A DNA stretch of 64,000 bases from positions 6,068,926-6,132,925 of the forward strand of contig JAJEKV010000038.1 of assembly GCA_021234155.1 (NCBI GenBank), written 5' to 3'. The stretch is from Isoetes taiwanensis (lineage: Eukaryota > Streptophyta > Lycopodiopsida > Isoetales > Isoetaceae). A program made the position numbers and the translations under genes. Shown one piece after another: positions 1 through 47,985 of this stretch; the first letter of the stretch is position 1, and every line of letters starts with the position of its first letter. The notes under the pieces were generated by a model. The model did not search any database. It saw nothing but the letters and a program-made list of their open reading frames with translations, and had not been told where the DNA came from.

Positions 1-560
1 CCGAAGTGGAGATGGCATTGCAAATTGATGCTTCAAAGGCTTGCCAATGAATGGCGGCGTCTTAGCATCTCCATGGCTTCCCTCAATTGGGCTACATGCT
101 CTTCCATTAATTTGCTGTAGATCACGATGTCGTTGAAGAGAGATTGATGAAGAAATCATCCAAGGAATCTTCGAAGATGTCGTTCCTCAAATGCATACAA
201 GTTGATGGAGCATTCCATAGACTTAGGAAATCACTGTGAAATGATAGTGCCCATACCAAGTTCTGAAGGAGTCTTATAATTATCTTCCCCCTTCATCCTT
301 ATTTGCTGATTGCCCTGAGCTTAAGTCGATTTTGTAGAAGAATCCTGCTTCTTGGGGCTGATCCATTATGTCGTTTACTTGCTGAGCTTCCCATGGTTGA
401 TATACATCTTTAGAATTCCATCTTGGCCAAAAGGATCCCCAAGTCGGTCAACTCTTACAACTGTTCCTTGAGCTCTGCTAGCTTGGAAGTGCTCATTCTA
501 TAAAGAGCCTTGCTAATCCGGTGCAAGAGTGATTTCAGACTCTACGCCTCTATAGAGCAA
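1..560 (-). pseudogene. Ty3/gypsy reverse transcriptase fragment, decayed
   Basis: Read on the minus strand with frameshifts, this stretch gives RT-like pieces in the expected order. A segment near 318-372 reads DQPQEAGFFYKIDLSSGQ, the conserved RT block around KIDLRSGY. Next comes a YGHYHFTV-like segment near 230-260, then LRNDIFEDSLDDFF at about 143-189, then DIVIYSKLMEEHV at about 85-125. These match the palm and YLDD neighbourhood of plant Ty3/gypsy polymerases. No long ORF survives. The fragment runs off the left edge, so the downstream RNase H and integrase would lie outside the window. It is opposite in strand to the LTR element that begins near 2090 and belongs to a different insertion. 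Confidence 0.75.
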
Positions 561-2089
561 AAGCTCTCAAATTTCATCAAGGGATATATCATGGGACTTC
601 TTAATTAACTTGGAAATTGGCCAAGGCAACTGTTTCGAAATAGCATCTTCCTTCTTACTATTGCGGTCGGGGTCGACAACTTGTAGCTTATGTATGACCT
701 CATTCCTCATGATGCACTTAAGTAATTGCCTTAATAACATGCGTTGCACGATTGGAACTTAACTTAAATTATAAGGTACTTGCCCTTTGGTGCTGGGATA
801 AGTATCTCTTGCTTATGATAATAAACTATTGCCTTAGCCGGCTTTAATATTGCATGTCTATTCTGAGGTCATAGCTGCCAATGTACATAAGTTGGTGCCG
901 ATGCTTTACTTAGCTATGCTTGAGGTTGATGTTGACTTGACTCTTGTTCCGTTGGTGCTGCTAATTACTCAACCTTGCCTTAATTACTGGCCTAGATTTA
1001 GACTTAAGAGTCTTGCTCTTAAAGATGTCCGTCATCTAGGAGGTGCAAAATTACAAGTTAAAGAACTACTTACATAAATTCTATGGCCACAAGTTTAGTT
1101 GGCATGACATTACTTTTGGGCACACATAGAAAACTATATGGTTAGATAATTATTCTTGTTTTAGATCTAATCTATACTCTAGGATCTATTATTTTCTTAC
1201 TTATTGCCCTCTTGAAATAGTCCCACCTTTGAGTTGATGCCATCTAAGAAGTTGGCCGGACTTATTAGATTGCTTCCCTTCATTTGGTCGGATTATTCCT
1301 TGCGGAAGTACTCGTCATATACACGGTCGACGGTTATCCTATTATTGAATCCTTCTTAGCGAGGTGATCAAGTTCACGAAGAGGTTCCAATATGTTGGAT
1401 ATCTGCCAGCAATGTATACAATTATTGTACTCCGTACATTTTCTTTCCAATACTTGAAGCTTTGCTCCATTCTTGGGTCCATCTTTCTAAAGGAAAAGAC
1501 AAAAAAATCTACTCGAAATTTCGTCCCCATCCCATCATGGATGTTATCACCCATAATTCTAAGAAACTCAACTATCGATAGGGTCCCCTAGCTTGCTCAA
1601 AGGTGTGTAGTCATTAGTCGTTGGAGTAGCAAGGCGATGGTCCATAATTTGTTGAAAAGAATGCGGTATCCTTGGGAGTTCTTTGTATGGTCCTTCAAGT
1701 GCCCTGCTTTCTTTTATTGAACATATTCGACTCTCTTTCGTCCTTAATGTTGATGCTAACTACCTTCATTAACATTATCCCTCTTAGTGGACTTCTTTGA
1801 TGTAGATAACATAACGCTTCGATTATTAGCATCCCAAGAGCTTGAAGATAATGTTCTTCACATTCTAGAATCTTTCATGTCGGCTCATCATGCGCTTGGA
1901 GGTTACGAGATTCGGGGATGATTCTCCCAACTCTGAATTGCTATTGTTGTGTTTTGACCTTGTCGATTCTATTCTTCGTCTTCTTGGTTGCATGTTGTTG
2001 TTATAAAGGCTGATGACAATGTTGAGTGCTTTACCACTTCTAACGTGCTTCTTCTCTTGCTGACGTTCCAACCGATTATCTGCCCCGGG
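561..2089 (-). other. No gene recognised; probably upstream part of the same antisense retroelement
   Basis: No domain can be read on either strand. Because the RT fragment to the left is on the minus strand, its protease and gag would be expected here, but I find no protease motif or zinc knuckle. The short ORFs, for example 567-749 and 1342-1554 on the minus strand, have no recognisable motif. Confidence 0.35.
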
Positions 2090-2206
2090 GCGTATATCTG
2101 TCGTTACCTAAATCCGCGCGTGCAGCCCAAATCCGGTGGCGTGTGCGCTAGCGTGTAGCCGTGTGAGTAGCCCTAGGGGGCAACTTGCCCGAAATATGTG
2201 CAACTA

Positions 2207-2353
2207 TTAATGTGCACATTTTTTCCAATGTACACATTAATGTGAGCACACATTTCAAGTGGACACTTTCATGCCAAGTGGGCCACACCCATAGGTGCAA
2301 TTAATGTGCACATTTTCCAATGTACACATTAATGTGGGCACACATTTCCATGT
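2207..2353. repeat. Two copies of a ~50-bp repeat in the U3 region
   Basis: Two near-identical copies, about 2207-2259 and 2301-2353, each contain TTAATGTGCACATTTT, CCAATGTACACATTAATG and a GCACACATTTC tail. The period is about 94 bp. Each copy can fold on itself because ATTAATGTG pairs with CACATTAAT. The position just upstream of the LTR TATA box suggests an enhancer-like role, which is inference. Confidence 0.7.
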
Positions 2354-2454
2354 GTGTGCACATTTGGCCACCTAGCCCTTAAAGGCAAGTGGGCCCATTT
2401 CCACTATCCCACATGCCAAAGGGGATAATTGGAAACCCTAGCCAACCCCTTGTC

Positions 2455-2460
2455 TATATA
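2455..2460 (+). promoter_or_regulatory. TATA box of the LTR promoter
   Basis: TGTCTATATAGGGTAGG is a good plant TATA context, lying between repeated U3 sequence and the conserved R/U5-like part. Confidence 0.5.
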
Positions 2461-3731
2461 GGGTAGGAAACCCTAACTAGCCCAATTTTTGATTTTAGGG
2501 CTTTTAGAACTGTTTTGGCTGCCTCAGCGGCCAAAACCGCATCCCGACTTGCTCGGGAGAATTGCATCCTTAGTTCCTCTAGATTCGAAATTTTTCCGGG
2601 ATGGTCGAGCTCCAGTCGGGAGGAGCCCCTCAAGGATCAGGTATTTGGCCAATTAGATAGTCTAAACCCTATTTTAGTCATAGAATCAAGAGGTTTAGCC
2701 TATTAAATTGCCCATAGCAGCCCTCTAGATCTCTAGATAGTAGATTCTAACTAAAGAACCTAACTCTATGTTGTAGAATAGATCTAGTTCTTTAGTTCTC
2801 TGTGAAGTATATGGATGATGTATCTCTATGAACTCCTTGTATTGGGAAGGGGGTAGAGACCTAAAAGCTTTGTAGTTGATGCTCCTAGAGTAGCCTCTCT
2901 AGCACACTTGTGGATTCGCCTGCACAAGAGCCACACCGGGATGTGGGTGAAGGGGCCGAGGCCCAGGCTGAGAAGGAGGTTCATGTCCCGACTCTTGAAC
3001 GGTTCCTCTCGTGTGTGTAAGGCCTCACGGGACCATTGTGACTAGGTCCAATGGCTTGCCCTTTGCGTCTTGGGGCAAGGCATGGGCTCGACACCGTGAA
3101 GTGGTGTTCACTTTCCAAAGGTTCACGAATACACGGGCAAAGTGGCCCTCTAGTCACCTTGACTCAAAGATGTAGATCTGCGGAGGGAGGATCCCTACCT
3201 GCCCCATCTAACGGGAAGATGAGCCCGGAATAGCCCCTTTGGCTATGCATCCGGCCAGACTGATCCCCAACACTTTTCACCTACTCACGCAAAGTGTGCA
3301 ATGGGAGGGGCGGATGGAGTGGACAACCCTAAGCCATGTTCATATGCCGCCCAAATCCATTACCATGAATTAAATGCCTCGCAATGAACTCGAGACCCAA
3401 GCCGCCGGTCATCCCTTTGAGTCCGAGCCTTGGGTAGGATTCCCTATGTGATGTCTTTGATCCTTGTCTATGCAGATATGTGGAGGACCATCCTTCGTGA
3501 TGGTCATATGATGTTGATGTATGTACTCTTGACATGTATGTTTACGCTTCCCCTAGCCTAGTAGGCCCTCGAGGGAGATCGAGGTGCAATGACCCTTCCA
3601 CTCTTCCCCCACCGGAACCCGCCACGGTTGCGGTGTCATGTGGAGGGCCCCTATTAGCATGGAGCCGGTATGGGGGATGAACTCCTGTTTGTATCTGGTG
3701 GGGGCACCGATATCGGTAGGGGACGTCACAA

Positions 3732-3742
3732 TGGTATCGAGC
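3732..3742 (+). other. Primer binding site (initiator Met tRNA)
   Basis: TGGTATCGAGC matches the usual plant retrotransposon primer site TGGTATCAGAGC except for loss of one A inside the CAG. It starts two bases after the LTR end CACA, exactly as at 10101 in the other LTR element. This marks the start of the internal region that holds the two gene-like units and gag. Confidence 0.75.
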
Positions 3743-3935
3743 TATGTTCTTGGAGACCAAGAGCAAAAGCAGCGGCCATGTTCCCATAGCACTACCTTGA
3801 TAGGATCCTTAAACCCCTAAAAAATGGGAAAAATTTTTTCTCATTTTTGTAGTTATGCTAAGCTAGTAACGATTAAAATGAATAGAAATGTAAAAAGATT
3901 AAAAATTGACGAGCCAACATCCAAAAAGTAGGGTG

Positions 3936-4002
3936 GTCTCACACGTCGCGCCGGAGACCCATTTTGACATTCTCTAAATCTGGGCCGGCGCAACGTAGAG
4001 AC
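3936..4002. repeat. Hairpin repeat, copy 1 (upstream of the H3-like gene)
   Basis: A 67-bp imperfect palindrome. The outer arm GTCTCACACGTCGCGCC pairs with a GGCGCAACGTAGAGAC arm. The inner arm ATTTTGA pairs weakly with TCTAAAT around the centre ACATTC. It is the first of four copies placed as two pairs, one pair before each ORF. Confidence 0.85.
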
Positions 4003-4122
4003 ATTCAAATTTTGACATCAAAAAGTTGTAAATTACGATTAAAATAACTTGATAATTCTTATTTTAAGCTAAGAATCGAGAATTAGCATGTTACATGTTA
4101 ATTTAATAGTGGGCCCCACCAT

Positions 4123-4188
4123 GTCTCACCACGTCACACGCCGGACGATGATTTTGACATTCTCGAAATCCGGGCCGGGCGAACGTGA
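4123..4188. repeat. Hairpin repeat, copy 2
   Basis: Same unit as at 3936 but more diverged (GTCTCACCACGTCACACGCC ... GGGCCGGGCGAACGTGAAC). The start-to-start distance to copy 1 is 187 bp. It ends about 75 bp before the TATA box of the H3-like gene. Confidence 0.8.
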
Positions 4189-4263
4189 ACCTTGCTTAAT
4201 TAGGTGTTTTAGATGCCTTAGACAACCCAAAAGGTAGTTTAAAAGTTGACCTAAAATTGGCCC

Positions 4264-4271
4264 TATAAATA
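4264..4271 (+). promoter_or_regulatory. TATA box for the H3-like gene
   Basis: CCCTATAAATAGACCC is a consensus plant TATA box about 100 bp before the ATG pair at 4368/4371. It lies inside the retroelement and far from the LTR TATA box, so this ORF appears to have its own promoter. Confidence 0.6.
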
Positions 4272-4367
4272 GACCCAGACCCCTCCCATTTTTTTCCTGT
4301 TCTTCCCTAGAACTTCGCCAGTCCGCCAAAGCGATCTTACGCGCTTAGCTCCGTCGACAAACCGAAG

Positions 4368-5737
4368 ATGATGGCCCGCACAAAAGCAGACTGCAAAGGA
4401 AGCCTAGCTGAAGGGATCCTCCAACCGGCTGTCCGGCCTCCTTCCGGATTCTTCGAACGCCTTCTCCGCGACGGCGAATCTTCGTCGAGCGAAGAAGCAG
4501 GATCGGATCGGAGCGACCATACAGAGCTCTTAGAGGACGAACAGCCGGATGTTATGCACCAAATCCTTGAGGAGATCGCACAGGAGGTGGGAAGAAGCGG
4601 GGAGCAGCAGGAGCAACCCCGGGAGGACAACAACCCCAGGGAGGGAGGAGCAGCCGAGCTGTAGGGCGGGCGGTCGGCGCCCCGTGACCAACCTCGGGGG
4701 AACCCCAACCCCACGGGGGGGAGCACAGGAGCAAAAGGGACCAATCGACGGCTCAGAGCAACCCCAAAGGAGATCCACCGGGAAGAGCAAAGAAGAGAGG
4801 AGCAAAGAAATGCAATGAACTCACCCCTCGATGAAGAGGCCGACCTTGCACGCTTCGTCCACAAGTATGAAGCCAAAGAGCGCCGCCGGGAGCAAAGGAC
4901 AAAGAGTCGAGAAGAGGATCCGACCACAGCCAGCGGGCCCAAGAAGAGGAAGGCCAAAGCCGTAAAGGCAGGTAAAAGGAAACTGGTAAAGGTCGGGAAG
5001 CGAGCCGCGGGTCCCGTCATCAACAAGCCGTCGGGAGAGGAGAGACCCGCCCACCACCGAAGCGACTTCGGATGAAGACTACGTCGAGGCGCAGACGGGT
5101 GGCAAGCTCTTCAAAGCCCCCTTGCCGAGAGGAAGAGGTCCCTGGCGCAGATAGCCCAAGAAATCGGGAGGAGACCGGACAGCTAAGCGGCCCCCACCTT
5201 TTCCGACGTGGGATAGGGTTAAAGCCCCGCGACCCCAGCGGGAGGCGTACGTGATAGACCCCCTAAAGGTCTATCAGAAGAGGATCAGGGAACACAACTC
5301 CTATATGGAGAAGTGGGAGGCATACAATGCTTATTTCTAGGAGCATCGGGTGAGAACAGTCGAAGGTGGAGTACCCCCAGGCAACATCTGAAGCCACCGC
5401 CACCCAGACCCAAGCCTCCCCGAGCACCGGGTAAGAAGCGGAGCAAGAAGAAGAAGCTGGAAGACAGGGCCCTCAAGGAGATCCGCCACTTCCAGAAGAG
5501 TTACGGGCTCTTGATTCCCCGGCGCCGTTCCAACGTTTGGTCCGCGAAGTGATGCAAGAATATAACACAGACATGCGCGTGACCGACGAGATGCTGTTGT
5601 GTTTACAGGAGGCGGCCGAAGCAAAAATAGTGCAGCATTTTGAAGATTCAACGGCTTGCATAGTACACGCAAAGAGGGTCACCCTCATGAGGCAGGATAT
5701 GCATCTTGCCAGGCACATCAAGGGAGAACGCCCTTGA
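4368..5737 (+). CDS. Histone H3-like protein with long charged insert (interrupted as written)
   Basis: The start is ATG ATG GCC CGC ACA AAA; the second ATG (4371) gives MARTK, the start of histone H3. The last part reads [17 protein letters not shown] (about 5470-5519), then [10 protein letters not shown] through HAKRVTLM to HIKGERP and a TGA at 5735. That is the H3 alpha-N helix and complete histone fold. From PFQRLVRE to the C-terminus I count 70 residues, about 38 identical to canonical H3 and with no indel. Between tail and fold lie about 330 residues: an acidic Ser/Glu stretch, a Gln/Glu-rich part, a Lys-rich part ([14 protein letters not shown]) and another basic run (KKRSKKKK) before the fold. 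As written it is broken by three TAG codons (4662, 5152, 5338) and frame changes near 5045, 5385 and 5518. The fold implies nucleosomal DNA binding. It could be a decayed gene or an intact one spoiled by base-call errors. A poly(A) signal follows at 5788. Confidence 0.8.
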
Positions 5738-5787
5738 ATTTTGTAAATAACTGGAAAATTTTGTTAATGTAAAGAAATTTTTGTGTA

Positions 5788-5793
5788 AATAAA
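5788..5793 (+). terminator. Polyadenylation signal after the H3-like gene
   Basis: AATAAA lies about 50 bp after the stop codon in an A/T-rich trailer. This suggests a polyadenylated transcript, as plant histone genes make, ending before the second gene-like unit. Confidence 0.5.
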
Positions 5794-5881
5794 GTGTCAA
5801 ACCCTGTTTAAATAGGTTAAGATATCGATCCCTAGCTTTTGTTTTAGGTGAATTGGAGCTTTGAGCAAAAATTGAGACGAT

Positions 5882-5948
5882 GTCTCACACGTCGCACCAG
5901 GACAGATTTTGACATTCTCAAAATCGGGCTGGGCGCAACGTGTGAGAC
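5882..5948. repeat. Hairpin repeat, copy 3 (upstream of the second ORF)
   Basis: A 67-bp palindrome: the arm GTCTCACACGTCGCACC pairs with GGGCGCAACGTGTGAGAC, and inside it GATTTTGA pairs with TCAAAATC. Same unit as at 3936 and 4123. Confidence 0.88.
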
Positions 5949-6080
5949 CATGCCCAAAAATGCCCAAAACAGCTCCAAATCGACTAAGTAAGGGGTCAAT
6001 TCTGCCTAACTCGATGAGTTTAGTGGAATTACAGCCTTAGATCACTTAAATTGAGTAAGCCTAGCCCAATTGGGACCCAT

Positions 6081-6147
6081 GTCTCACACGTCGCGCCAGG
6101 ATATGTTTCGACATTCTCAAAATCGGTCTGGGCGCAACGTGTGAGAC
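6081..6147. repeat. Hairpin repeat, copy 4
   Basis: The best-preserved outer stem: GTCTCACACGTCGCGCC against GGCGCAACGTGTGAGAC, 17 bp with one mismatch. It starts 199 bp after copy 3, nearly the spacing of copies 1 and 2, and ends about 180 bp before the TATA box of the second ORF. Confidence 0.88.
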
Positions 6148-6325
6148 CTCGTACCATTTCTTCACCAAATGATCTCCAAATTGTACAATAGGTCCAGTAC
6201 TTGTTCTTAGCATGCTCAAACCCTAGAAATAGCCTTCAAACTTGCAATTGCATCCCTTAATAGGTCAGAATTGCCTAATCTCAGTAAATTCTAGGTCATC
6301 CAAAAATTAGGGTTTCCCCATTTTC

Positions 6326-6333
6326 TATAAATA
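6326..6333 (+). promoter_or_regulatory. TATA box for the second ORF
   Basis: TTTCTATAAATAAGTTCCCC is about 120 bp before the ATG at 6448. The order hairpin, hairpin, TATA, ATG repeats that of the H3-like gene. Confidence 0.6.
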
Positions 6334-6447
6334 AGTTCCCCATTTCTCAATTGGCACCCTGCAAATTTGCTCTCCACTGCTTAGGCGATCTTTCAGCTCC
6401 CTGAGGCGCTTCTGCATCCGTTTGATACTCCCTTCTTTGCTAGATCA

Positions 6448-7295
6448 ATGGCCACTGCTGACTTCGGGCGATGGTACAGCGCCAGTGCCCATGCTGCCGA
6501 GGCGGATGTCAACGACATCTTCCAAGTCTTTGGGAAGGAAATTGACATCCAAGCTACGCTAAATGCAATCCCAGCATATAGGCAAGTGCTAGCAGAATTT
6601 CAAGCTAGGGTAGGACCCTCACTTGTTCAAGTCCCCCCTTGCATAGGATACTTCGTTCCCCGCCAATCCCTTCAAGCAGCCTTGGGTGATGTCCCCAACA
6701 TCGCCAAGTACTTAACTAACAAGGCGCAGAGGCTGCCTGACTACATGGTCCTGACAGCCAACAGGACCAAGTACTTCTCTTACACCGCAGCCCTAGCCAT
6801 CTTCTTATCCCACCGCGCCGAGAACCCGATGGGGGCAACCTCTATTCCCCCGATGGAGGTAGACCCCATAGCAGTCCAAGCAGAAGAGCAGATGCTGTTG
6901 CAATACCAACAGGAACAAGAAGCAAGAGAGGAGGAAGAAGAGTCGGACGACGAAGGATACACGGAGCTCGACTCAGATGAAGAACGGCGCCAAGCAGAGC
7001 AGGAGCTGGTCAACTTCGAGCGGAGCCGGCTGAGCATCAGAGTTGCTCCCCCACTCGGGCTAGGCATCGCAAGCCTAGCTCCTATCATCATCAACGGAGA
7101 GGAGTATCTACTCCTCAGCGACATCCAGAACCTTCCCGAATGCAGGGAGAGGGAGCTCAGGTTGGACGAATTGCTCCACCAACTGCGGCAGACCGACATG
7201 GACGACTTCATCGTCCGGGGAGCCTCGGACTTTCCGCTTCAAGTAAGGGAGGCCGACACCTACACAGGCGAAACGACCTCAGATATCCAGGCCTA
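6448..7295 (+). CDS. Second element ORF, N-terminal part, unrecognised protein
   Basis: An open frame of about 283 codons starts MATADFGRWYSASAHAAEA and runs without a stop until the LTR element at 7296. Residues 1-130 look globular. Residues about 140-195 are strongly acidic (EEEEESDDEGYTELDSDEE). A further globular part includes ELRLDELLHQLRQTDMDDF. I recognise no domain. GC content and codon style match the H3-like gene, and it has the same paired-hairpin plus TATA promoter, so the two probably work or move together. Its reading frame resumes at 13198 after the inserted LTR element. Candidates such as a gag-like or chromatin-associated protein cannot be tested by eye. Confidence 0.6.
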
Positions 7296-10098
7296 TGTAA
7301 CAGTCCTGGCCACTTGATGGGTTAATATATTTCTGTACGTATATACATATTCATGGCATGTATGCAGCATGAGACCAGGGTTTTGTCTCTTTGGAGAAAG
7401 TATTGTTGCAGAGCATGAAGGCAGGGAGCAATTCTGGGCAGTTTTAGAACCCGATTTTTGAAGCATCATATCTTGGCGACCCGAGATCCTTTTCAGGTGA
7501 TTTTTCTTTTGCTGGAAAGATCTTTAAGTTAGCTTTTCGGAATGGGTCTGATCAGGCCGAAACGCATCCTTATGAGAAAGTTATGACAGAAATTGTGATG
7601 TTGGGTCAGAATTGACTGCACTATGTATGTTCTTCTGCAGTTTGATTCTTGGAGTTAGAAGACGATCTTTTGAGGCGCAATCAATTGAAAGGGTTCCAGA
7701 GGTCTATCCACGAAGAAATTCTAAGGTGGGGTTTTGCTGAGTTAATTTGAGATTTGATATGGACTGCCATGGTTAGATTTATGATGATTTGTTAAGAGGG
7801 TTATGGCTATGTATTTCCAAGGAACTATGGCGTGTAAAAACTCCAGAGGTAAGAAATCATAATTGCTTCTATGCCTAAATATGTTCATGCTTTTGGTAAG
7901 ATATTTGGGTGCTTATGTGTTGATGTGAACATAGAAATTCAGAAACAGATTGTTTAGGCTTTGCTTAAGCAGATGGCATGGGATCTAACTGAGAAAAGCT
8001 GAATTGATGCATGTGGATTCTTTTTAAGCATTTGGGCATAGCTAGGAATGGTCGATTTGCATTGGACTTCTTCAAAAGATAGAGATTGATGCTGCCTCAG
8101 AGGGGTATAGAGGCCTTTTTGCCGAGATTTGCAAGCCTAAGCTAGTCTAGTTGAAGAGAAGCTGAGAGGGATATGATGTATTGTATATAAAAGGACCGGA
8201 TTCAATGGTAAAGGGGCATTTCGGCTGAATCAGGGATATCATGGAAGGATTTTTGGAGCTATCTGGATGGGTTTGGATTCACGTGAAAGCATGCCAAAAT
8301 ATCTTGGGAAGTGTGGATTTGGGCATGGAAAGTCCCGATTCGGGATGTGCAACTTCGATATAGTAAGATCGGGCTGAAATACAGAGGTGTTATGGCTATT
8401 CTGGTCTTCTAACTTGTTGTTTTTTCTTTCTTGTCTCATTTGTGATATATGCATGTTGTTAACAAATTGGTAATTGGTAATGATATAATAATAGGTAAAG
8501 ATAGAAGCCAAAGGGGAACAATGGAAGTGTAAGGGCTATGGTATGAATATAGATTAGCCAGTAGAGCAGTTGCAGGAGATCTAGGAGATCTGAGTGGTAA
8601 CGTAAACTTAAATAATTCTAAGAACATGAGACATAGTTCGGAATCATTTGATAGTTGATATAAGCAGTTGTGGTCATGAGTCGATGTGGATTTGTAATCC
8701 AGAATGAGTTCCACCTTAGATGCACTAATAATCCTTAGCTATAGAAAGAGGGTTTTAATTGGAATAATAAAAACCTTAACTAATTGGAGATAAATAAATG
8801 GTGGAACCTTAGAGATCAAATGAAGTTGGGCCGAGAGAGCAATATGAGGCATATGTGGGTGTCTAGATGAGGCTATGGCATGGAGCACTGTTATTCTAAG
8901 TGTACACCGTAAGTTTCCAAGTTATTGCACTATACTTTGTCAAAGGCATCATAGCTAATAGATTGTCCTCAGGGAGAATGGTTTTGAGGTAAGGTTTGCA
9001 TTGTGTGGATTGTTAGTATCTTTCCTTGTTGTAGCTACATCAAGGATAGTTAGGCTTATGGCTTCCTCGACGTGTTGGATTGCGATCATTATCTTCATCG
9101 ATAACCTAGCTACTTCAACTTGGGCGTTGTATAGACAACATCGACAACAAGTATAATCTAGGCACATGATAGTAAACATTCTAATGAACTTCACATGTCT
9201 TGGTCTTGCATTGTCCAATTTATTGTCTTGGTATTTGATGTCTATTGAAACCTCCGGGTCGGACTTCTAGGTTCTAAGTGGCCCTAGGTTGCTCTGGCAT
9301 GCTCATGTTCATCTCAGTGATTCTCTGTGGTATTCTTGTGCTCTATGACACCGGCGTTAGTTCTCTGGCCCGGGATTGCTCGTCGATCAATTCTTGTGAA
9401 CTCCCATGGTAAGAGGTCCTCGATTGCGGGGTGGGGTGGGAAGGGTATGCGCATACGAGGTTTACCCCACCAACTCCGCCAACGGGGCTCGGAATGTGAG
9501 CCGGCTGGGCATTTTTCTGCTAACAGGGCCTGCATGTAGGCTGGCTGAGCTACCCATTGTCCCGGAGCTATATTTCTGATGTTTTGTTATTCTGGCTATG
9601 TTCTTTGCTTTTGTTGCTCAGAGGTTGGTATTTACTTGGATTACGTTGTCATTGTCTTAGCACTGTACTCATGTAGGATTTTCCGTCTGTGTTTGTGCTT
9701 ATCCAAGATTTCCAGAGTATTTCCATGCATGCAATGGCAGCCAGGGATCCCCACTTAGTCACGAGGACTAACCCCAGTGAGTGTATGTGCAGTGAATGAG
9801 CAAGGCGATGGCACCAGCACGATTGTGGCTCATGGATGAGCGAGAAGCTTCTAGGGTTGAGTTGCTAACAGGGATGCTGTAACTATTGAGAATATGGATT
9901 TCTTGGATGTTAATATTGTATGATTATATTGAGACCATAAGTACTTGCTCATTGAGTTTTGAGTATGCTATTTCAACTGTGCAAGAGGAAGATTCAATTC
10001 TTCACCATATTCAATTGTTTGTCACCCCAACCTAGAATTAGCGCAGTATTGACAGGATCCCGAGTTGCCTAGAGGGTCAACTCGGCAGGCTCGTCACA
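7296..10098 (+). repeat. 5' LTR of the non-autonomous element
   Basis: It begins TGTAACAG and ends GTCACA next to the primer site. Alignment by eye with 10397-13197 shows high identity. Most differences are small changes around CAG or CTG, for example AATCAGGGAT against AATCGGGGGAT and ATTCTGGTC against ATTCGGTC. No ORF in it is recognisable. Confidence 0.9.
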
Positions 10099-10100
10099 AT

Positions 10101-10112
10101 TGGTATCAGAGC
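10101..10112 (+). other. Primer binding site (initiator Met tRNA)
   Basis: TGGTATCAGAGC is an exact match to the common plant Met-tRNA primer site, two bases after the 5' LTR. Confidence 0.92.
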
Positions 10113-10384
10113 AATGTTGGATCCTTGGATGTTGACATTATGATCTATGGATTGCAGAGAGATCTAAAAATGCTATCCTCAGGAGGAGGAGGAATATTTA
10201 GAGGCTTCGTGGTTACCATAGAAGTATTCAAGAGAGAAGTCTCCGTATAAGCAACGAGAGCAACTCTTGATGATGTTGAGGTATGAATTATGAATAATTT
10301 GGCATTGAATATTAATTCTATAAGTTGTTGGAGAATTGCTTCATCAAATCAATGATCGACCCATGAGGACATGGGTGAAATTTT

Positions 10385-10395
10385 AGAAGGGGAGA
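10385..10395 (+). other. Polypurine tract
   Basis: AGAAGGGGAGA immediately precedes the 3' LTR start at 10397 and is the expected plus-strand priming site. Confidence 0.85.
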
Positions 10396-10396
10396 C

Positions 10397-13197
10397 TGTA
10401 ACAGTCCTGGCCACTTGATGGGTTAATATATTTCTGTACGTATATACATATTCATGGCATGTATGCAGCATGAGACCAGGGTTTTGTCTCTTTGGAGAAA
10501 GTATTGTTGCAGAGCATGAAGGCAGGGAGCAATTCTGGGCAGTTTTAGAACCCGATTTTTGAAGCATCATATCTTGGCGACCCGAGATCCTTTTCAGGTG
10601 ATTTTTCTTTTGCTGGAAAGATCTTTAAGTTAGCTTTTCGGAATGGGTCTGATCAGGCCGAAACGCATCCTTATGAGAAAGTTATGACAGAAATTGTGAT
10701 GTTGGGTCAGAATTGACTGCACTATGTATGTTCTTCTGCAGTTTGATTCTTGGAGTTAGAAGACGATCTTTTGAGGCAATCAATTGAAAGGGTTCCAGAG
10801 GTCTATCCACGAAAGAAATTCTAAGGTGGGGTTTTGCTGAGTTAATTTGAGATTTGATATGGACTGCCATGGTTAGATTTATGATGATTTGTTAAGAGGG
10901 TTATGGCTATGTATTTCCAAGGAACTATGGCGTGTAAAAACTCCAGAGGTAAGAAATCATAATTGCTTCTATGCCTAAATATGTTCATGCTTTTGGTAAG
11001 ATATTTGGGTGCTTATGTGTTGATGTGAACATAGAAATTCAGAAACAGATTGTTTAGGCTTTGCTTAAGCAGATGGCATGGGATCTAACTGAGAAAAGCT
11101 GAATTGATGCATGTGGATTCTTTTTAAGCATTTGGGCTAGGAATGGTCGATTTGCATTGGACTTCTTCAAAAGATAGAGATTGATGCTGCCTCAGAGGGG
11201 TATAGAGGCCTTTTTGCCGAGATTTGCAAGCCTAAGCTAGTCTAGTTGAAGAGAAGGCAGGGATATGATGTATTGTATATAAAAGGACCGATTCAATGGT
11301 AAAGGGGCATTTTACCGAATCGGGGGATATCATGGAAGGATTTTTGGAGCTATCTGGATGGGTTTGGATTCACGTGAAAGCATGCCAAAATATCTTGGGA
11401 AGTGTGGATTTGGGCATGGAAAGTCCCGATTCGGGATGTGCAACTTCGATATAGTAAGATCGGGCTGAAATACAGAGGTGTTATGGCTATTCGGTCTTCT
11501 AACTTGTTGTTTTTTCTTTCTTGTCTCATTTGTGATATATGCATGTTGTTAACAAATTGGTAATTGGTAATGATATAATAATAGGTAAAGATAGAAGCCA
11601 AAGGGGAACAATGGAAGTGTAAGGGCTATGGTATGAATATAGATTAGCCAGTAGAGCAGTTGCAGGAGATCTAGGAGATCTGAGTGGTAACGTAAACTTA
11701 AATAATTCTAAGAACATGAGACATAGTTCGGAATCATTTGATAGTTGATATAGCGATTGTGGTCATGAGTCGATGTGGATTTGTAATCCGAAATGAGTTC
11801 CACCTTAGATGCACTAATAATCCTTAGCTATAGAAAGAGGGTTTTAATTGGAATAATAAAAACCTTAACTAATTGGAGATAAATAAATGGTGGAACCTTA
11901 GAGATCAAATGAAGTTGGGCCGAGAGAGCAATATGAGGCATATGTGGGTGTCTAGATGAGGCTATGGCATGGAGCACTGTTATTCTAAGTGTACACCGTA
12001 AGTTTCCAAGTTATTGCACTATACTTTGTCAAAGGCATCATAGCTAATAGATTGTCCTCAGGGAGAATGGTTTTGAGGTAAGGTTTGCATTGTGTGGATT
12101 GTTAGTATCTTTCCTTGTTGTAGCTACATCAAGGATAGTTAGGCTTATGGCTTCCTCGACGTGTTGGATTGCGATCATTATCTTCATCAGTAACCTAGCT
12201 ACTTCAACTTGGGCAGGTTGTATAGACAACATCCGCAACAGTATAATCTAGGCACATGATAGTAAACATTCTAATGAACTTCACATGTCTTGGTCTTGCA
12301 TTGTCCACTGTTGTCTTGGTATTTGATGTCTATTGAAACCTCCGGGGTCGGACTTCTAGGTTCGGTGGCCTAGGTTGCTCTGGCATGCTCATGTTCATCT
12401 GTGATTCTCTGTGGTATTCTTGTGCTCTATGACACCGGGCGTTAGTTCTCCTGGCCGGGATTGCTACGTCAGTCAATTCTTGTGAACTCCCATGGTAAGA
12501 GGTCCTCCAGTGCCAGACGTGGGCTGGGAAGGGTATGCGCATACGAGGTTTACCCCACCAACTCCGCCAACGGGGCTCGGAATGTGAGCCGGCTGGGCAT
12601 TTTTCTGCTAACAGGGCCTGCATGTAGGCTGGCTGAGCTACCCATTGTCCCGGAGCTATATTTCTGATGTTTTGTTATTCTGGCTATGTTCTTTGCTTTT
12701 GTTGCTCAGAGGTTGGTATTTACTTGGATTACGTTGTCATTGTCTTAGCACTGTACTCATGTAGGATTTTCCGTCTGTGTTTGTGCTTATCCAAGATTTC
12801 CAGAGTATTTCCATGCATGCAATGGCAGCCAGGGATCCCCACTTAGTCACGAGGACTAACCCCAGTGAGTGTATGTGCAGTGAATGAGCAAGGCGATGGC
12901 ACCAGCACGATTGTGGCTCATGGATGAGCGAGAAGCTTCTAGGGTTGAGTTGCTAACAGGGATGCTGTAACTATTGAGAATATGGATTTCTTGGATGTTA
13001 ATATTGTATGATTATATTGAGACCATAAGTACTTGCTCATTGAGTTTTGAGTTACTGTATGCTATTTCAACTGTGCAAGAGGAAGATTCAATTCTTCACC
13101 ATATTCAATTGTTTGTCACCCCAACCTAGAATTAGCGATATTGATGGGATCCCCGAAGTTGCCTAGAGGAGGGTCAACTTCGGCGAAGCTCGTCACG
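10397..13197 (+). repeat. 3' LTR of the non-autonomous element
   Basis: Second copy of the 7296-10098 sequence. It ends GCTCGTCACG, after which the frame of the interrupted ORF resumes. Copy-specific differences around 12190-12540 fall mainly at CAG/CTG sites. Confidence 0.9.
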
Positions 13198-13863
13198 ACC
13201 CTCTGGCGAATCGAGGCAAATGATGGACGAAAGCGGGGAGCCCAATGCGAGGAGGAGTTCCTCGCCCTCCAAGAACAGATGGGGATCCGTGGGAAGACCA
13301 CGAGCATCCTAATGCCGAGTCCTTCGACACAACCCCCGCCAAGAGGAGAAGGAATCGACCTCAGGAGGCTCGACCGCACAATTGAAGACTACAGGGAGTC
13401 GATCGAAATTGAGGTCGGCCAGCGGCACGGGCGCACAGAAGCCTGGAGGCCAAACAAGCGGAGAAGCTTGACACACAAACGATTGTCGCCGTACTACTTG
13501 GCCGCTGTTCTGATGGATGGGAGAATAGCGATGAATACACCGCAGTTCAGTCCCAGGTGAAGAAGGAGTGTTCATCTTTGATTGCACTCTCGGGCTTGGC
13601 GGCATGCTCGAATAGCAACAAATGTCGACTATCTTTGTCCTCGGTCAAGAGGGCAATGGCACTTTCGACCTCTTCGACTTCGCCATACCCCCACCGTCGC
13701 CAGCGAGATCTGGCGGATCGCGCCCCTTACATCCGACCGCGGGGTAGAAGACTTGGTGAGAGCCTTACGGGGAGGCTCGTCGGCAAGCATCATCGAACTT
13801 GGGTCACTCGGTAAAGGGCGGCCCAAGTTAAAGTTCCTTGAAGACAACCCGCTTCTGCCGTGA
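13198..13863 (+). pseudogene. Second element ORF, C-terminal part after the LTR insertion
   Basis: The first frame reads TLWRIEANDGRKRGAQCEEE and onward from 13198. Near 13440 the best-looking frame shifts to one reading SLEAKQAEKLDTQTIVAVLL. It shifts again to a frame with STIFVLGQEGNGTFDLFDF and finally SASIIELGSLGKGRPK before a TGA at 13861. With the upstream part, the undisturbed protein would be about 500 residues. Frame changes may be errors or decay. I recognise no domain. Confidence 0.5.
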
Positions 13864-14055
13864 TTTCAAGACTAGTTAAACTCTTGATCCCTGAGACTTT
13901 TGTACTAAAATATTATATGATATATAAATACAATTGCTTGACACTTTAAATGCTTTGTTGATGTATTTTTGCCCCACAATTATACCAACAAACATAAACA
14001 ATGCAAGAGAACAAATGAAACTAACCAAATAGCCATGAATTGCTTGTGTATGCAG
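13864..14055 (+). promoter_or_regulatory. A/T-rich gap between second ORF and gag
   Basis: It contains TATATAAATA at 13921-13930 and a pyrimidine-led TGTGTATGCAG near 14045-14055 that could be a splice acceptor for a gag transcript. There is no hairpin repeat here, unlike the two upstream units. Confidence 0.3.
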
Positions 14056-15275
14056 CTAGAAGCCTAAACGCTAGTGGGAACGACAAATCGCGAGACCTTA
14101 TAGAAGAGCGACCCCCATGGACCACCTTCGCAAGGAACCTATTTGAAGATATGGAACCCATGACCCCGAGAGGAGGAGATATCCCGTGATGAGGACGGAC
14201 CGAGCAGATAAAGGCCTTGCTGTCCCCGCAAGCAGCGAATGGGTTCGTGTGGCAACGCCTCGGTTGCCACAAGCATCACCGGAGAGAGTGAAGGGACAAG
14301 AAGAGGAGCAAGAGAAGGAGATCCTCCAACCCCGGAATCTTCCGACTCAAGTTCGAGACTCGGACCGACTCAGGAAGAGGAAGAGCGAGTTCGGGACCTA
14401 ACCCGATGGAAGGCAAAGGAACACCAAGATGGAAGGCGAGGGAACACCCCTGATGGACGACAAAAGAGATACGGTGGCCTCGACTACCGAGAAGAAGGTA
14501 GATTCCGCACTGGGCAATGTATGGAAGGCCCGGAAACTGGAACAGTTCTCAGGGGAGAACAGGTCAGGATTGGAAGCAGAGGCATGGCTGGACGAAATGA
14601 GTGAGTACGGCAATGCTTATGGCATGAAAGACAAAGACAAAGGCAGAGTTGCAACAGCCAACTTGAAAGGAGCCGCTCGGATTTGGTGGAAGGGTTATGC
14701 AAAGGCACATGGCTTAAGCAGGGATGCTTGTAAGTTCAGAAAGTTTGCTAAAGCCTTCAAGCGCCACTACGTCCCGAGGGAACATAAGTCCAGCATGATG
14801 CAGCAGTTTTATAGGTTGCAGCAAGGCAACAAATCAGTCCAGAAATATACAGAGGAATTCATGAGGCTAAGGGTCATTTGTATGCCAAGTTGGGAGAGAA
14901 GCATGCAGTAGAAAGCTATATTGAGGGACTGAATGAGGAGATCCGCAAGCTTGTGAGGGCAATAAACCCTAGGACAATATCAGAGGCGGAATCCAAGGCT
15001 ATAAGCTTGCAGGGCCTGGACCTCTAATAAGATAGCGGCGGCAGTATTTCGGGATAAAGGCAAGGCGACAGGAAGCTATAGCCCTAGGGCAGCCAGTCCA
15101 GGTCCAGCTAGAGCCCCATATGGTGGGAACCAGGGGAAACAGCAGGAGAAGAAGCAGGTGTCCTTCAAGGACAAGCAGGAGGGGTCAAACTACTCCAAAG
15201 CAGTGCGATCCTTTTTGCAGGCGATGCCCAAGGAAAAGAGGCAGGAGTGCATAGAAAAGCAGCTGTGCTTCAGGT
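14056..15275 (+). pseudogene. Ty3/gypsy gag, frameshifted and truncated
   Basis: The clearest part (14429-14870) reads KLEQFSGENRSGLEAEAWLD, then KGAARIWWKGYAKAHGLS, FRKFAKAFKRHYVPREHK and QQGNKSVQKYTEEFMRLRV. This is the capsid-type retrotransposon gag domain. After a frame change near 14872 it continues KLGEKHAVESYIEGLNEEIRK. A stop pair at 15026 and another frame lead to KEKRQECIEKQLCFR, the residues that normally precede a CCHC zinc knuckle. At 15275 the sequence switches abruptly to a repeat also found at 20799, so the knuckle and all of pol are missing. Upstream, LIEERPPWTTFARNLFEDME (about 14095-14155) may be the gag N-terminus. Confidence 0.8.
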
Positions 15276-16058
15276 ATGATTATTCTGAGTTTTTCATGTA
15301 ACAATTTAAAGTGCTAAAAATATGATTTGATAAGCAGATTTGCTGTTAATAAATATGATATGGTAGAGCTTAAACAAGTTATCTTCTGAAAAATTGAAGC
15401 TAGGATTAAGGTGCATTGTCCCACTTATTAAATTACTGTTGTATGGCTACATAGATAAGAAAGAATGAAAGTAAAATCCTATGAAAATTCTGTAATTCAG
15501 TGAAATAGTTGCTGGTTGTTTCAGTCTGGCATAAAGACTGGTGGCCTTTCTTATAGTATTCTAAGCAGTGAAAATAATGCGGCAAAAAAAAAGGCATATA
15601 GATGCAGAATTACAAGGGTCATCTGTTTGACCGACATGGACTTCAATAAGGTTATGGATATGGCAAACAAGTGCCAAAGCTATATGTTGTGTGGGAAAAT
15701 GTCAAGTAGAGTTTTGCATTTGGCCTCTGAAATACTGAAATATAAACAGGTTGGCAGGAAAATAAATATAGCATGGTAGTGCTAAAACATGTCTCCTCTT
15801 TGAAATAATAAAACCATTGGATTTTATTCCTGAAAGGTTTGGCTTATTGGCTTATGTAACTATGGTCTTTTTGGAAAGTTTGTTTATTAATTTTGGTATT
15901 TACAATACTTAATTACAAATTGGGGTGCTAGAGGCTAAAGGATAATGAGTACCGGTTTCATACGTAATTACGTATCCGGATTGATAATACAGTTACTGGG
16001 ATTGACCAGGACTGATGTTCGACCTAGGGATCTAGGTTTGACCGGTTTTTTTTAGACA
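15276..16058. repeat. Dispersed direct repeat R1, uninterrupted copy
   Basis: 15276-15438 matches 20799-20961 and 15446-16058 matches 22453-23053, both in direct orientation. Here the two halves are adjacent; in the other locus they are separated by 1.5 kb. It includes a short ORF-like segment (KVMDMANKCQSYMLCGKMS, near 15650-15710) that is also present at 22655-22715, possibly an old exon. Flank-to-flank continuity here shows the pre-insertion state of the other locus. Confidence 0.8.
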
Positions 16059-28178: not shown

Positions 28179-28745
28179 CTTCCATTGCGTTTCTAAGAAG
28201 ATTGTGGTGTTCGACCTAAACGAGTCCTTTGCAAGACTTTTCCGAAAAATAAAGTGGCTAGAGTACGGTTTCATCGACACCAAGAGAATCAAACACCAAG
28301 TGGATCTATCCGCGGCCGCACTTGAAGGAGATACTAGACGAGGCATTCGAGGTTATTTCGAAGTTGGTATTTGGTCATCCATGGAACTAAGGAACATCAA
28401 GGATACTTTGGAGGCACTTTGGAAATGCGTAGACATTGGTTGACCCTTTGGGATCGTAACAAATGTGTGAAGTTCACTAATCCCAAGGATCCAACAGGCA
28501 AGCCTATCTTCATCAAACACTTGAGTAACATGATGGACGAACTTGGTATCGAGAATAAGGATGATATAATCATAGTGGATGATGATGCTCTCAAATGCTT
28601 CTACAATCAAACGCAGGCCCTGAATCCACCATCTTACGATCCAAAAAACTTTGCGACAGATGATTTTCTGGTGACGTTTGTGTCTATTATGCATAATTTG
28701 GCTATGGGGAAGACGGTGGGTGAAGTGTTAGATTCGTACCCATAA
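28179..28745 (+). pseudogene. FCP1/NIF-like HAD phosphatase domain, frameshifted
   Basis: After an acceptor at 28178 the frame reads CVSKKIVVFDLNESFARLF, then YFEVGIWSSMELRNIKDTLE. A one-base shift near 28425 leads into RRHWLTLWDRNKC, GKPIFIKHLSNMMDELG, DDIIIVDDDALKCF and LNPPSYD, ending at a stop at 28743. These are the ordered motifs of the FCP1 homology domain: motif I, WSS motif II, the Lys of motif III, and the DD of motif IV. Motif I is FDLN instead of DxDx(T/V), so the second catalytic Asp is Asn. Active FCP1-type enzymes dephosphorylate phosphoserine, for example in the RNA polymerase II tail, but this copy is probably inactive. It resembles a terminal exon of a plant NIF-family gene. 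Confidence 0.72.
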
Positions 28746-36599: not shown

Positions 36600-37555
36600 G
36601 CTTGAAACCCGGCTGGACTTTTGCTTTCAATGTTCCATCAATCCTTCACCTTCACGTGTTTTGTAAGATCGATGAGAGGTCGGCAATGGAATGCAAAATC
36701 ATAACAAATTTCCACGATAATATCACCCGCTAGTCCCAAGAAACTTGGACCTCCAAGAACATTACAGGAATAGGCCAATCTCTTCTTTGCTTCTATCTTT
36801 GCGGGATCCGTAGCAATTCCCTCTGCTAAAATAATATGTCCCAAATAATCCCACCTTGGGAGTGGCAAACTTGCATAGAGAACTTGGCAAAAAGCTGATG
36901 GCGTCTTAGCTTTTGTAGGGCCAACCTAAGATGTTGTTTGTGCTCCTTCAAAGTTTACTATAGATGAGGGATAATAGGTCAAAGAAATAACAACAAAATC
37001 ATCTAAGTATTGGCGGAAGACATCATTCATCAATCGCGCCATGAAAGTTGCGGGGCATGGATTAATCAAAAGGCATAGCGGTAAATTCATAATGTCCATA
37101 TCTAGTGCGAAAATTTATGGATGTCCTCCTTTAATTCTTATCGATGGTAGCGGGCGTAAATCAATCTTTGAGAAATGTTTGGCCCCTTGTTGGTCCATAA
37201 GATGCGATGCGCATAGGCAAAGCATAGCGATTCTTGATGGTATGCTATTGAGTTAGCAGATAATCAATACACACATCCTCAAGGAGCCATCCTTCTTCTT
37301 AACAAAAAGGATAGGGCGCCAAAAGCGAAACACTAGGCGAATGAAACCTAGGTTTAGGAGCTCTGACGCTTCTTAAACTCTTGCCAACTCACGGGGGACT
37401 CATACAGTGCGGGGCCTTTCTTAGTAGGCTTAGTACCTGGTTCTGAAGCGATCTCACATTCGACCCTCGGAAAGGAGGAAGTTTGGATCTCATCGGAAAA
37501 GATCACTAAATTCCTAAGAAGGTTAGCAATCCCTTCTGTGTGGTGCATCAATTAT
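36600..37555 (-). pseudogene. Reverse transcriptase region
   Basis: The minus strand gives EPGTKPTKKGPALYESPVSW (near 37420-37460), RPILFVKKKDGS (near 37300), FRQYLDDFVVIS (near 36985-37020) and YLGHIILAEGIATDPAKIEA (about 36780-36860). These are consecutive RT blocks. The YLDD motif copy is the segment before the usual catalytic YxDD, which itself is not clearly readable. Multiple frameshifts. Confidence 0.85.
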
Positions 37556-40190: not shown

Positions 40191-40413
40191 ATCAAGAAAA
40201 GATGAAAAGAGAAGAAATGAAGAAGCAAGATTTAAACCTAAAGCCCTCAGCCTTTATTAAGAAGGAAAGGGAAGCACTCGAAGGAAGAAAACAGAAGAAA
40301 GGAAGTCGCCATAGCCCTTTATGCTTGTCGCCCAAGTTGTTGCCGCCATAGCAAGAAAAGATGCATGCCATCTCTGTGCTCCACCGCCTCCTGCAAGAAA
40401 AGAGAAGCAATCA

Positions 40414-40524
40414 GAAGAAGAAGAAGAAGAAGAAGAAGAAGAAGAAGAAGAAGAAGAAGAAGAAGAAGAAGAAGAAGAAGAAGAAGAAGAAGAAGAAGAA
40501 GAAGAAGAAGAAGAAGAAGAAGAA
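40414..40524. repeat. (GAA)37 microsatellite
   Basis: An uninterrupted GAA run of about 111 bp. Its six frames give poly-Glu, poly-Lys, poly-Arg, poly-Ser, poly-Leu and poly-Phe, which explains the long low-complexity ORFs here. Confidence 0.97.
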
Positions 40525-40529
40525 GGAGG

Positions 40530-45857: not shown

Positions 45858-47614
45858 GAAGAAGAAGAAGAAGAAGAAAAAAGGAGAAAATGGTCTCAAA
45901 ATGTTGGGGCTTTGCTTCAAACTGGCAAAGATGCAAATACTTAGCTAAGATGCTAAAATGTCAATGCAAAAATATTTTGGTTAAAATCTTATATATGAGG
46001 GGCATGAGCCCAAAGAATTAATGTTAAAAACTTGTAAAGACGTGCATGTCAAGGGCATGAGCCAAAAGAATTAATGTTAAAACTTGTAAAGTGGTGGCCC
46101 TTTGACTATGTACTATTATTGTTATTAAATTTTCTATAGGTGGTTTTTTGTGGGCATGCAAGAGGATGCCATACATATGACCTTTAAGTAAATGGGTTGC
46201 ATGTGCTTTTGCCAAACTTTTTGGGGCAACAATAAGCTTTAATTGTTACGTTTGAAGATACTAATTCGGCCTACAAGAGGTGCAATGCAATTTTCTCATA
46301 CGAATTATTTTGGTTAACTTAAAAGTTTGCATGCATAGCCATATGGCGCTAAATGGTGGATATCTTTGATAAAGGTAAAAAGCTTTACATTGTTACAATT
46401 TGGGTGGACGTATAGGAGCATCGGTATTTTGTGCCCTAAATAGTTGGCCGCTTGGCCGCATGAAAATCCCGCCTTGCACATGGTACGTGAGTTATGGGCG
46501 AATAAAAACTATGAAAATGGATGGGCTTCATATAGCCAAATCCCGCTCGGAGTCCGTAAGGATGATTTTGTTTGAAATGCCGGATTTAACTTGATGGAAT
46601 ACTTCTCATTGTGATCGTAAAGGTGGACATTTCAACAAATAATTTCAAAAGATTTCAATGCCATAAAAGAGTTATTGCATGCACACCGGGTAAGCCCATG
46701 GTTTTCAAAATAGTGGCTCAAATTTTGTGGCCATGGATTTGATATTTTCTATGGATGTATATAGGTTTACAAATAATAGATCAGTTTCAATGGAGTACAT
46801 GCAAATGAATGGACAAGCTATGTATGGCGGAGACATCCCAATTCATATGAAAATGGGGACTCTCTCTCTCCCCGGTTCTATTTTCAAGAAAAGATCATTG
46901 TAGGCAAGGTTGTTAAACATGGAATAACCAAAGATGGATTTAAATTATTGGTGAGATCCTTCCAAAATTTGGGATTATGAATCGCTCACCGCTTAAGAAT
47001 CTAATAGTTGTTTGGATCTTCTCCTCGCATTTTTTATGCCTTTTGAAGATTATAGCATGGTTGCAAAAGTGGGTCGTGACCAATGACTAGTGTATTCAAA
47101 TGGCTGACCTAAGCTTGCTTCGTTGATAGGAAAACTCGATTATGAAACTGGATCATGAAAGTAACAAAGGAAATGAGTTTGAGTATTCAATCATATTAAG
47201 AAGAAAGTCCAGAAATCCTTTATGAAATGTTATGTGTTCCACGCTTTGAATTCTTACGTTATGCAGTATATTGGAGTAAATAAGCCTTTTGACTACACAA
47301 TAAATGATTCCAAACAAGTTAAGGTTTCAAGTCTGGCTAAAGACCAAATGTAATACTTAAAGCTATCTAGTTAAAGAAAGAAAAGATATAGTGGATCAAA
47401 ATTTGGACCGAAGTGAAGATTTTGTCATGAGAATCAAGATTAAATGGAAGTAGAGTATTCGATGTATTCGGCTTAAACACAGGATACATTGGGAGCGTCT
47501 TATCGAACCGTAAGCGAATGGTAGTTTTCTAGCATTATTTTAGTCCCAGAGTCTGTGGGAAAGAAATATATATTCAAGAAGAAGAAGAAGAAGAAGAAGA
47601 AGAAGAAGAAGAAT
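45858..47614. repeat. 1.7-kb direct repeat, copy B, with GAA runs at both ends
   Basis: Same order of blocks as copy A. Many CAG/CTG-containing words of copy A are altered: for example CCTGGCTGCTG has become CGCTCGGAGTCCG near 46545-46560, and ATGCCAGATAAC has become ATGCCGGATTTAAC. The terminal GAA run is at 47575-47613. Confidence 0.85.
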
Positions 47615-47619
47615 TTCAT

Positions 47620-47985
47620 GCTGGAGCAGCCACCCCACCTGCTGCCGCCCAAGACTGCTGGCCCACGTCCATCCTTTTTCATTATTATTTGCCCTTTTGT
47701 TTCCATTCGTCTATATTGCCTTTGTATTTTTCGTCCATATTAACTCCATTCACCTATTTGCCTTTTTTACATCCATGTTTGCCTCCTTCCACGTTCCCTT
47801 TGATTTTTCATATGCAACATTCCTTACAATATGCCTTTTTATTTCCGCTAATTTTTTTTCAATGTACTTAGCTCATCATACTTAGCTTTTACCTTGAGTA
47901 TGTTACTTCGGATCTTTATTCTATTATTCACCAAGCATTAAGCGTTGCTTTACAATTTGACGATAGCTACGAATTTTATTTATAT
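47620..47985. other. No gene recognised, T-rich
   Basis: Pyrimidine-rich DNA downstream of the GAA run; the ORFs here follow from base composition. Confidence 0.4.

Follow-up and report, generated by a model that had tools for sequence, protein, structure and literature searches.

The nearest precedent we found for the gene analysed here comes from Dothideomycete fungi, whose hAT DNA transposons carry an H3-like gene; according to the available parts of the two reports, all 26 H3-like genes of Pyrenophora have insertions in the N-terminal tail, and Pseudocercospora has a captured 136-aa H3 coding sequence, the copies of which are mostly truncated and RIP-damaged (PMC3538342, PMC6710886). Plant LTR retrotransposons with aORFs are a second related system: the aORFs sit for the most part 3′ of pol, ahead of the 3′ LTR; env-like proteins and, in one case (PvRetro13), an SMC domain are mentioned for them, and gene23 of Grande is reported to be transcribed from its own promoter; the word “histone” does not occur in the accessible text of this account of aORFs (PMC7264820). 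A survey of 121 angiosperm genomes describes Gypsy elements with extra domains, including an orchid element with an m6A demethylase; the nine of fifteen domains named in its accessible part are PMD, G-patch, AIR1, DUF1409, YgdH, L26, B3, ArgoL2 and 2-ODD, with no histone among these nine, and the screen covered angiosperms only (PMC9289625).

We are highly confident that the window (the whole stretch of 64,000 nucleotides of Isoetes taiwanensis DNA that was analysed) contains one decayed member of a multi-copy family of Ty3/gypsy LTR retrotransposons, probably chromoviruses, in which an H3-like gene (H3L) is a regular component under selection. As in the fungal hAT elements, so far as the accessible accounts describe them, a mobile element here bears and amplifies an H3-like gene; the fungal carriers are DNA transposons with TIRs, whereas the Isoetes H3L is carried by a retrotransposon and is a long gene under constraint. 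On the same partial accounts, the aORF elements likewise have extra conserved genes besides gag-pol, although mostly 3′ of pol, whereas H3L and a second gene, ORF2, lie 5′ of gag; and the angiosperm Gypsy elements likewise combine a Ty3/gypsy element with a host-derived regulatory protein domain. Chromoviruses are Ty3/gypsy elements with a chromodomain in the integrase; the H3L element resembles them in its gag, PR and RT and, probably, in an integrase SH3 and chromodomain-like end, and differs from them by the additional genes H3L and ORF2 ahead of gag.

Our searches of the open-licence literature turned up no LTR retrotransposon reported to carry a histone, and the word “histone” is absent from the available main text of two Isoetes genome papers, one of them PMC8566536. 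The first-pass annotation knew of no described H3 variant of this layout in a plant mobile element; fungal DNA transposons with H3-like genes had already been described.

The H3-like gene in the window and across the genome

The H3-like start that the first-pass annotation had read in the window is there, with MARTK at 4371 inside MMARTK at 4368 (coordinates of all features are given in Table 1). Its C-terminal H3 fold was likewise borne out: the C-terminal piece, window 5435-5734, matches the Pfam Histone family (PF00125) at 1.8e-19 and solved H3 chains in the PDB at 2.5e-21, and the alignment to canonical H3 runs free of indels from PFQRLVRE, as had been claimed, up to GER. The single open reading frame in which start and fold had been placed does not exist: read in register with an open H3L copy, the sequence is interrupted by stops at 4662-4664, 5152-5154 and 5338-5340, and tblastn puts frame changes near 5047, 5380 and 5522. 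Because of these stops and frame changes we regard the window copy as decayed and dead; its 10-residue tail has drifted, and open copies elsewhere mostly read MARTKQTARKP.

Table 1. Features of the decayed element copy in the window
Feature	Position	Strand	Evidence
5′ LTR, decayed copy (TGACGTTCC ... GGGGACGTCACA)	2061..3730	+	window 2152-3347 aligns with the L031 LTR; ends read
Degenerate PBS TGGTATCGAGC	3732..3742	+	TGGTATCAGAGC in other copies
Palindrome 1 of 4, about 70 bp	3935..4003	+	repeat family D8; hairpin z -5.3
Palindrome 2 of 4, degenerate	4122..4186	+	repeat family D8; sequence read
TATA box TATAAATA before H3L	4264..4271	+	sequence read
H3L gene, decayed copy	4368..5737	+	tblastn with open H3L protein, four pieces (L001 is the window copy)
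Alpha-N region of H3 fold (17 residues)	5469..5519	+	read in frame before main fold; PF00125 weak, E 0.12 alone
Remaining H3 fold, APFQRLVRE ... GERP, stop	5522..5737	+	PF00125 1.8e-19; PDB H3 2.5e-21
Palindrome 3 of 4	5880..5951	+	family D10; hairpin z -7.9
Palindrome 4 of 4	6079..6150	+	family D10; hairpin z -5.9
TATA box before ORF2	6326..6333	+	sequence read
ORF2, first part (MATADFGRWYS...)	6448..7292	+	open ORF2 of 508-511 aa in L031, L032, L039
LTR element of another family, nested in ORF2	7293..13199	+	direct repeats spaced about 3.1 kb; sequence read
ORF2, second part, decayed	13214..13865	+	alignment with L031:6718-8786
gag remnant	14402..15275	+	PF03732 1.4e-14; alignment to L031 stops about 15275

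A search of the genome (1,658,258,908 bases in 1110 contigs, with the window at C1043:6068926-6132925) with the window fold gave at least 150 scored places, each with E ≤6.1e-38; the 8803 first-look candidates of this search are not a copy count. As at least 150 places in the same genome match at this level, a chance origin of the window fold is excluded. Open frames of at least 400 aa were present at 36 of the 150 places listed, and 20 of these 36 loci were fetched, picked by fold similarity and an open frame; estimates of conservation are flattered by this selection. The N-terminus is in frame with the fold in 18 of the 20, with proteins of 398-452 aa, and 15 of these 18 read ARTKQTARKP after the Met, the other three being near variants. 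Among the fetched loci, the tail motif is present out of frame in L040 and was not found in L042. The set L001-L030 includes broken copies and three of the fetched copies, and the start is visible in its forward-oriented loci only; 16 of these loci have an H3-tail-like start in the searched stretch, several of them mutated. In tblastn alignments, many of the genomic copies turned out to be broken.

H3L is built of an H3 tail tip, a Ser-rich/acidic stretch, a Glu/Arg-rich stretch, KKRKAKAIKAGKRKVVKVGKR, a block YVIDPVKVYQKRI..., a Pro/Lys linker and the H3 fold. In the open copies an unrelated arm of roughly 300-350 residues replaces K14-K36 of the canonical tail, in agreement with the separation of about 330 residues between tail start and fold that had been proposed. 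An open copy passes the PF00125 cut-off (2.4e-27) and matches H3.3 in the PDB at 2.4e-28, so that the fold is present by Pfam and PDB matches in open copies as in the window. Its loops have the length of those of H3. H3L thus has in common with canonical H3 and CENH3 the PF00125 fold, indel-free against H3 from alpha-N to the C-terminus, and the ARTKQTARK tip; it differs from canonical H3 in its length (398-452 aa vs. 136), in the long arm in place of K14-K36, and in its fold, which shares about 56% identity with Arabidopsis H3.1. AlphaFold2 models of H3L (pLDDT 48) and ORF2 (pLDDT 31) were unusable.

The carrier element

The composite order of the element is LTR - PBS - H3L - ORF2 - gag - PR - RT - putative RNase H/integrase core - integrase SH3/chromodomain-like end - LTR; the paired LTRs (one complete pair), the PBS and the gag-PR-RT order place it in Ty3/gypsy. 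The 5′ LTR starts with TGTGACGTTCC (TGTGATGTTCC in one copy), with differing flanks in all 12 loci checked, and ends with GACGTCACA; immediately 3′ of it, 16 of the 20 fetched loci have TGGTATCAGAGC, which we take to be a PBS for tRNA-iMet. All 20 align with the copy L031 across H3L and ORF2, ORF2 lying downstream on the same strand; 19 have LTR sequence in common, the alignment of L048 starting only shortly ahead of H3L, and all but L033 have gag-pol matches (19 of 20). Pfam matches in L049 are to gag (1.3e-17), protease (5.1e-9) and RT (2e-40). L051, about 8.3 kb past the start of the L049 H3L and on the same strand, matches integrase SH3 at 8e-23 and Chromo at 2.3e-5, the latter at 24.7 bits vs. 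a cut-off of 25.1 and in one copy with frame breaks; L049 and L051, about 1.6 kb apart, are probably parts of one element. The window corresponds to L031 less far downstream: L031:6718-8786 aligns with window 13214-15275, and nothing aligns beyond about 15275. Transduplication by a hAT element was rejected, as the element has LTRs and RT instead of TIRs and no hAT match was found among the 12 proteins scanned.

In the copy L032 (contig C1026), a partner LTR 93% identical to the first lies 11,642 bp downstream, start to start, which puts H3L inside the LTR pair; from this one measured pair the element is about 13 kb long. At plant substitution rates of 6.5e-9 to 1.3e-8, the pair would be roughly 3-6 million years old, a very uncertain age. 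Among the matches listed, 15 of 40 LTR places lie less than 15 kb from an H3L match (chance 0.11), all 15 on the same strand: eight at -3.3 to -3.6 kb, as 5′ LTRs; six at +8.1 to +8.4 kb, as 3′ LTRs; and one at -7.0 kb (40 of 43 LTR rows were used, three being second pieces of places already listed). Similarly, 30 of the 85 ORF2 matches listed have H3L within less than 6 kb (chance 0.09), all 30 on the same strand, with a spacing from the listed coordinate of 712-998 nt in 29 and 4.3 kb in one. The H3L, ORF2 and LTR lists are lists of matches, in which an unmatched entry is not evidence of absence.

The H3-like protein that the first-pass annotation had seen in repeat DNA is thus the product of a gene of a multi-copy Ty3/gypsy LTR retrotransposon. 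The chance adjacency of a host H3 pseudogene to a repeat, which the annotation had set against its own reading, is refuted by the fixed gene order (20 of 20 loci), the LTRs at set distances (14 of 15) and the purifying selection described below.

H3L and ORF2 look like separate transcription units, because a TATA box and a pair of palindromes precede each of them. The H3L TATA box stands about 90-112 nt ahead of the start in 19 of the 20 loci (both placeable), and the ORF2 TATA box 121-124 nt ahead in 16 of the 20 (both placed). The palindromes form pairs about 200 bp apart and are nested ~70-mers with ACGT cores; all four can be recognised, from one arm or both, in 18 of the 20 loci, with three in L047 and two in L050, and the three window palindromes tested as DNA hairpins gave z of -5.3 to -7.9. 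No polyadenylation signal is conserved among the fetched copies, and Rfam gave zero matches in window 1-16000.

ORF2 has no Pfam match, and its best PDB match has E 0.93, nothing real. In the window it is interrupted by the nested element, with LTRs at 7293-about 10099 and 10394-about 13199, a PBS TTGGTATCAGAGC at about 10100 and a PPT-like AGAAGGGGAGAC; a target-site duplication was not recognised on reading the nested element. With two LTRs of ~2.8 kb and only about 290 bp between them, without a long frame, this element is probably non-autonomous. Elsewhere in the window, 37272-37514 and 248-372 (-) are short fragments like the RT region of the H3L element, from other gypsy copies; 28338-28742 gives a weak match to a NIF-like phosphatase (5.6e-4, below the Pfam cut-off); and 40242-40592 and 47533-47885 are simple-repeat tracts with poly-Arg, poly-Ser or poly-Glu in open frames, probably not genes.

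Selection on the fold and its ancestry

The H3L fold is under strong purifying selection, with dN/dS of 0.02-0.05. Its pairwise dN/dS over 19 copies is 0.034 at a dS of about 0.5; the first 13 residues give about 0.07, and segments of the remaining protein range from 0.15 to 0.27. In the matched open copies L031, L032 and L039 dN/dS is 0.046 for the fold, 0.177 for the rest of H3L and 0.131 for ORF2; in the pair L031-L049 it is 0.017 for the fold, 0.113 for the whole of H3L, 0.047 for gag-pol and 0.012 for the RT part (89 codons). As the values in matched open copies are comparable, the fold is constrained about as strongly as gag-pol, not more. A first calculation over all 20 loci, which gave 0.20-0.44 for the ORF2 and gag-pol stretches, was dropped for these open-copy values because broken, misaligned stretches were in it. 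The choice of loci by fold similarity lowers the fold dN somewhat; we judge that it cannot take a neutral value of about 0.5 down to 0.02.

A captured host H3 fragment without function, amplified along with the element, could account for the many broken copies, and host gene capture by retroelements does occur, on the available text of PMC7264820. We nevertheless disfavour such a passenger as very improbable: the fold has dN/dS values like those of gag-pol; the position, the TATA box and the paired palindromes are constant in the fetched copies; and more than one H3-like type is found within the one genome.

In a genome search with H3.1, 15 full-length places at 96-98%, among the matches listed, are taken as the host H3 genes. 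A second set, type B, comprises at least 135 places with a fold 71-86% identical to H3.1, none of them less than 3 kb from the 96-98% set; 51 of the 135 listed have open frames of at least 400 aa. The one type B copy that was read (L052) encodes 413 aa beginning MAITKSAPD..., with an unrelated N-terminus, a PF00125 match at 4.9e-41 and an H3 end identical to H3.1 at 85 of 99 residues. Beyond the 3′ end of this gene come AATAAA, a TATA-like sequence and a further frame starting MAAARPCLWYHD; the resemblance of this frame to ORF2 lacks significance, being equalled in 84 of 1000 shuffles. Type C is a 295-aa open frame in the flank of L039 (oriented 1-889), upstream of the H3L element; its fold is 63% identical to H3.1 and has R63, and its pre-fold block is, by eye, like that of type A, the type of the H3L element.

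In 19 of 19 H3L folds, R69, R72, R83, C110, H113, K115, R116, T118, D123, L126 and I130 are invariant; R69, R72 and R83 are DNA-contact arginines, and the kept sites include most of the H3-H3′ contacts. Replaced in all 19 are R49 (by K), R63 (by P), K64 (by R in 17 and W in two), K122 (by Q) and R129 (by H), with R63, K64 and K122 being, we assume, DNA contacts as well; position 87 is E and position 90 is L. An H3L nucleosome, if there is one, would thus be unusual, as R63, K64, K122 and R129 are replaced throughout.

Several of these residues recall CENH3, and H3L might derive from or imitate CENH3 and lead the element to centromeric chromatin. Among the sequences compared, the L032 fold is 60.0% identical to rice CENH3, its top score, 56.7% to H3.3, 55.6% to Arabidopsis H3.1, 54.4% to Arabidopsis CENH3 and 51.1% to maize CENH3. 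Fourteen fold sites of H3L match one or more of these three angiosperm CENH3s but not H3, and five show the reverse; H3L shares P63, A65, T85, E87 and L89 with all three. The 150 listed copies are also mildly clustered, with nine pairs less than 100 kb apart vs. 1.35 expected and 19 vs. 13.5 at less than 1 Mb. However, loop 1 has the length of that of H3, without the CENH3 insertion, and membership in CENH3 as such was rejected on this longer loop; in a tree that included no lycophyte CENH3, H3L is not placed inside the CENH3 clade, and the tree does not decide between H3 and CENH3 for type A; and type C, as noted, has R63 and is 63% identical to H3.1. We therefore regard targeting to the centromere as unlikely.

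Possible roles of the protein

The gene order, the homology of the fold, the tail tip, the conservation of DNA- and H3-contact residues and the purifying selection are established observations; expression, nuclear entry, pairing with H4, deposition and a benefit to the element would lie beyond them. The reading we prefer, to which we give an even chance, is that H3L may be a chromatin-acting protein of the element, with an H3 fold and a tail tip presented on a long arm. Rather more tentatively, we propose how it could act: H3L would be expressed from its own promoter; the lysine-rich segment would import it into the nucleus; the fold would pair with host H4, and H3L would thereby be incorporated in, or docked on, chromatin; the acidic/basic arm would offer readers and writers of the tail a further H3 tip (residues 1-10, including K4 and K9 but with Pro for S10); and the element would benefit, either by being shielded from silencing or because its own integration complex finds a place to dock. 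That the element's own chromodomain binds the H3L tail is attractive but weak: the L051 chromodomain presumably keeps the Trp of the HP1 cage but not the two Tyr, and with the cage looking incomplete in this way, binding to methylated K9 is doubtful.

The tail tip and fold could also act in the free state, as a histone mimic or decoy that titrates host chaperones, K9/K4 methyltransferases or readers and so blunts silencing, for which entry into nucleosomes would be unnecessary. Such a role is consistent with the conservation of the tip (dN/dS about 0.07) in the absence of the remaining canonical tail (K14-K36), and with the changes at the DNA-contact residues R63, K64 and K122. A pure tail decoy, however, needs no fold, and yet it is the fold that is under the tightest constraint in H3L; the DNA arginines R69, R72 and R83 and most of the H3-H3′ residues are kept as well. 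We consider a decoy possible, at distinctly lower probability than action in chromatin.

Compaction of the element's nucleic acid, in a virus-like particle or just after nuclear entry, is a further role that an H3 encoded by the element, with basic segments adjoining its fold, might have; viral histones exist, and those of certain DNA viruses may perform such a task. It would leave the conservation of the ARTKQTARKP tip unexplained, and of the 20 pattern matches to the window fold and the 46 to the H3L alignment in IMG/VR, none was confirmed as a relative; we hold packaging to be improbable. A scan of IMG/VR with the ORF2 alignment likewise gave 121 pattern matches and no confirmed one.

Extended to the other H3-like types, action in chromatin suggests a broader picture, which we judge to fall somewhat short of an even chance: a group of LTR elements in a lycophyte may make H3 variants of its own, with types A, B and C going back to repeated uptake of H3 folds and with constraint on type A at the least, which would assemble with H4, let the element write its own chromatin state and present a tip for docking or against silencing. 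Transposons read histone marks, through chromodomain integrases, and are silenced through them. If our reading is true, a selfish element here supplies part of the chromatin itself instead of just reading its marks; the conflict between host and element over chromatin would become testable, in that one could ask whether the variant nucleosome marks, protects or guides the element; and H3L would be a natural H3 with a re-engineered tail.
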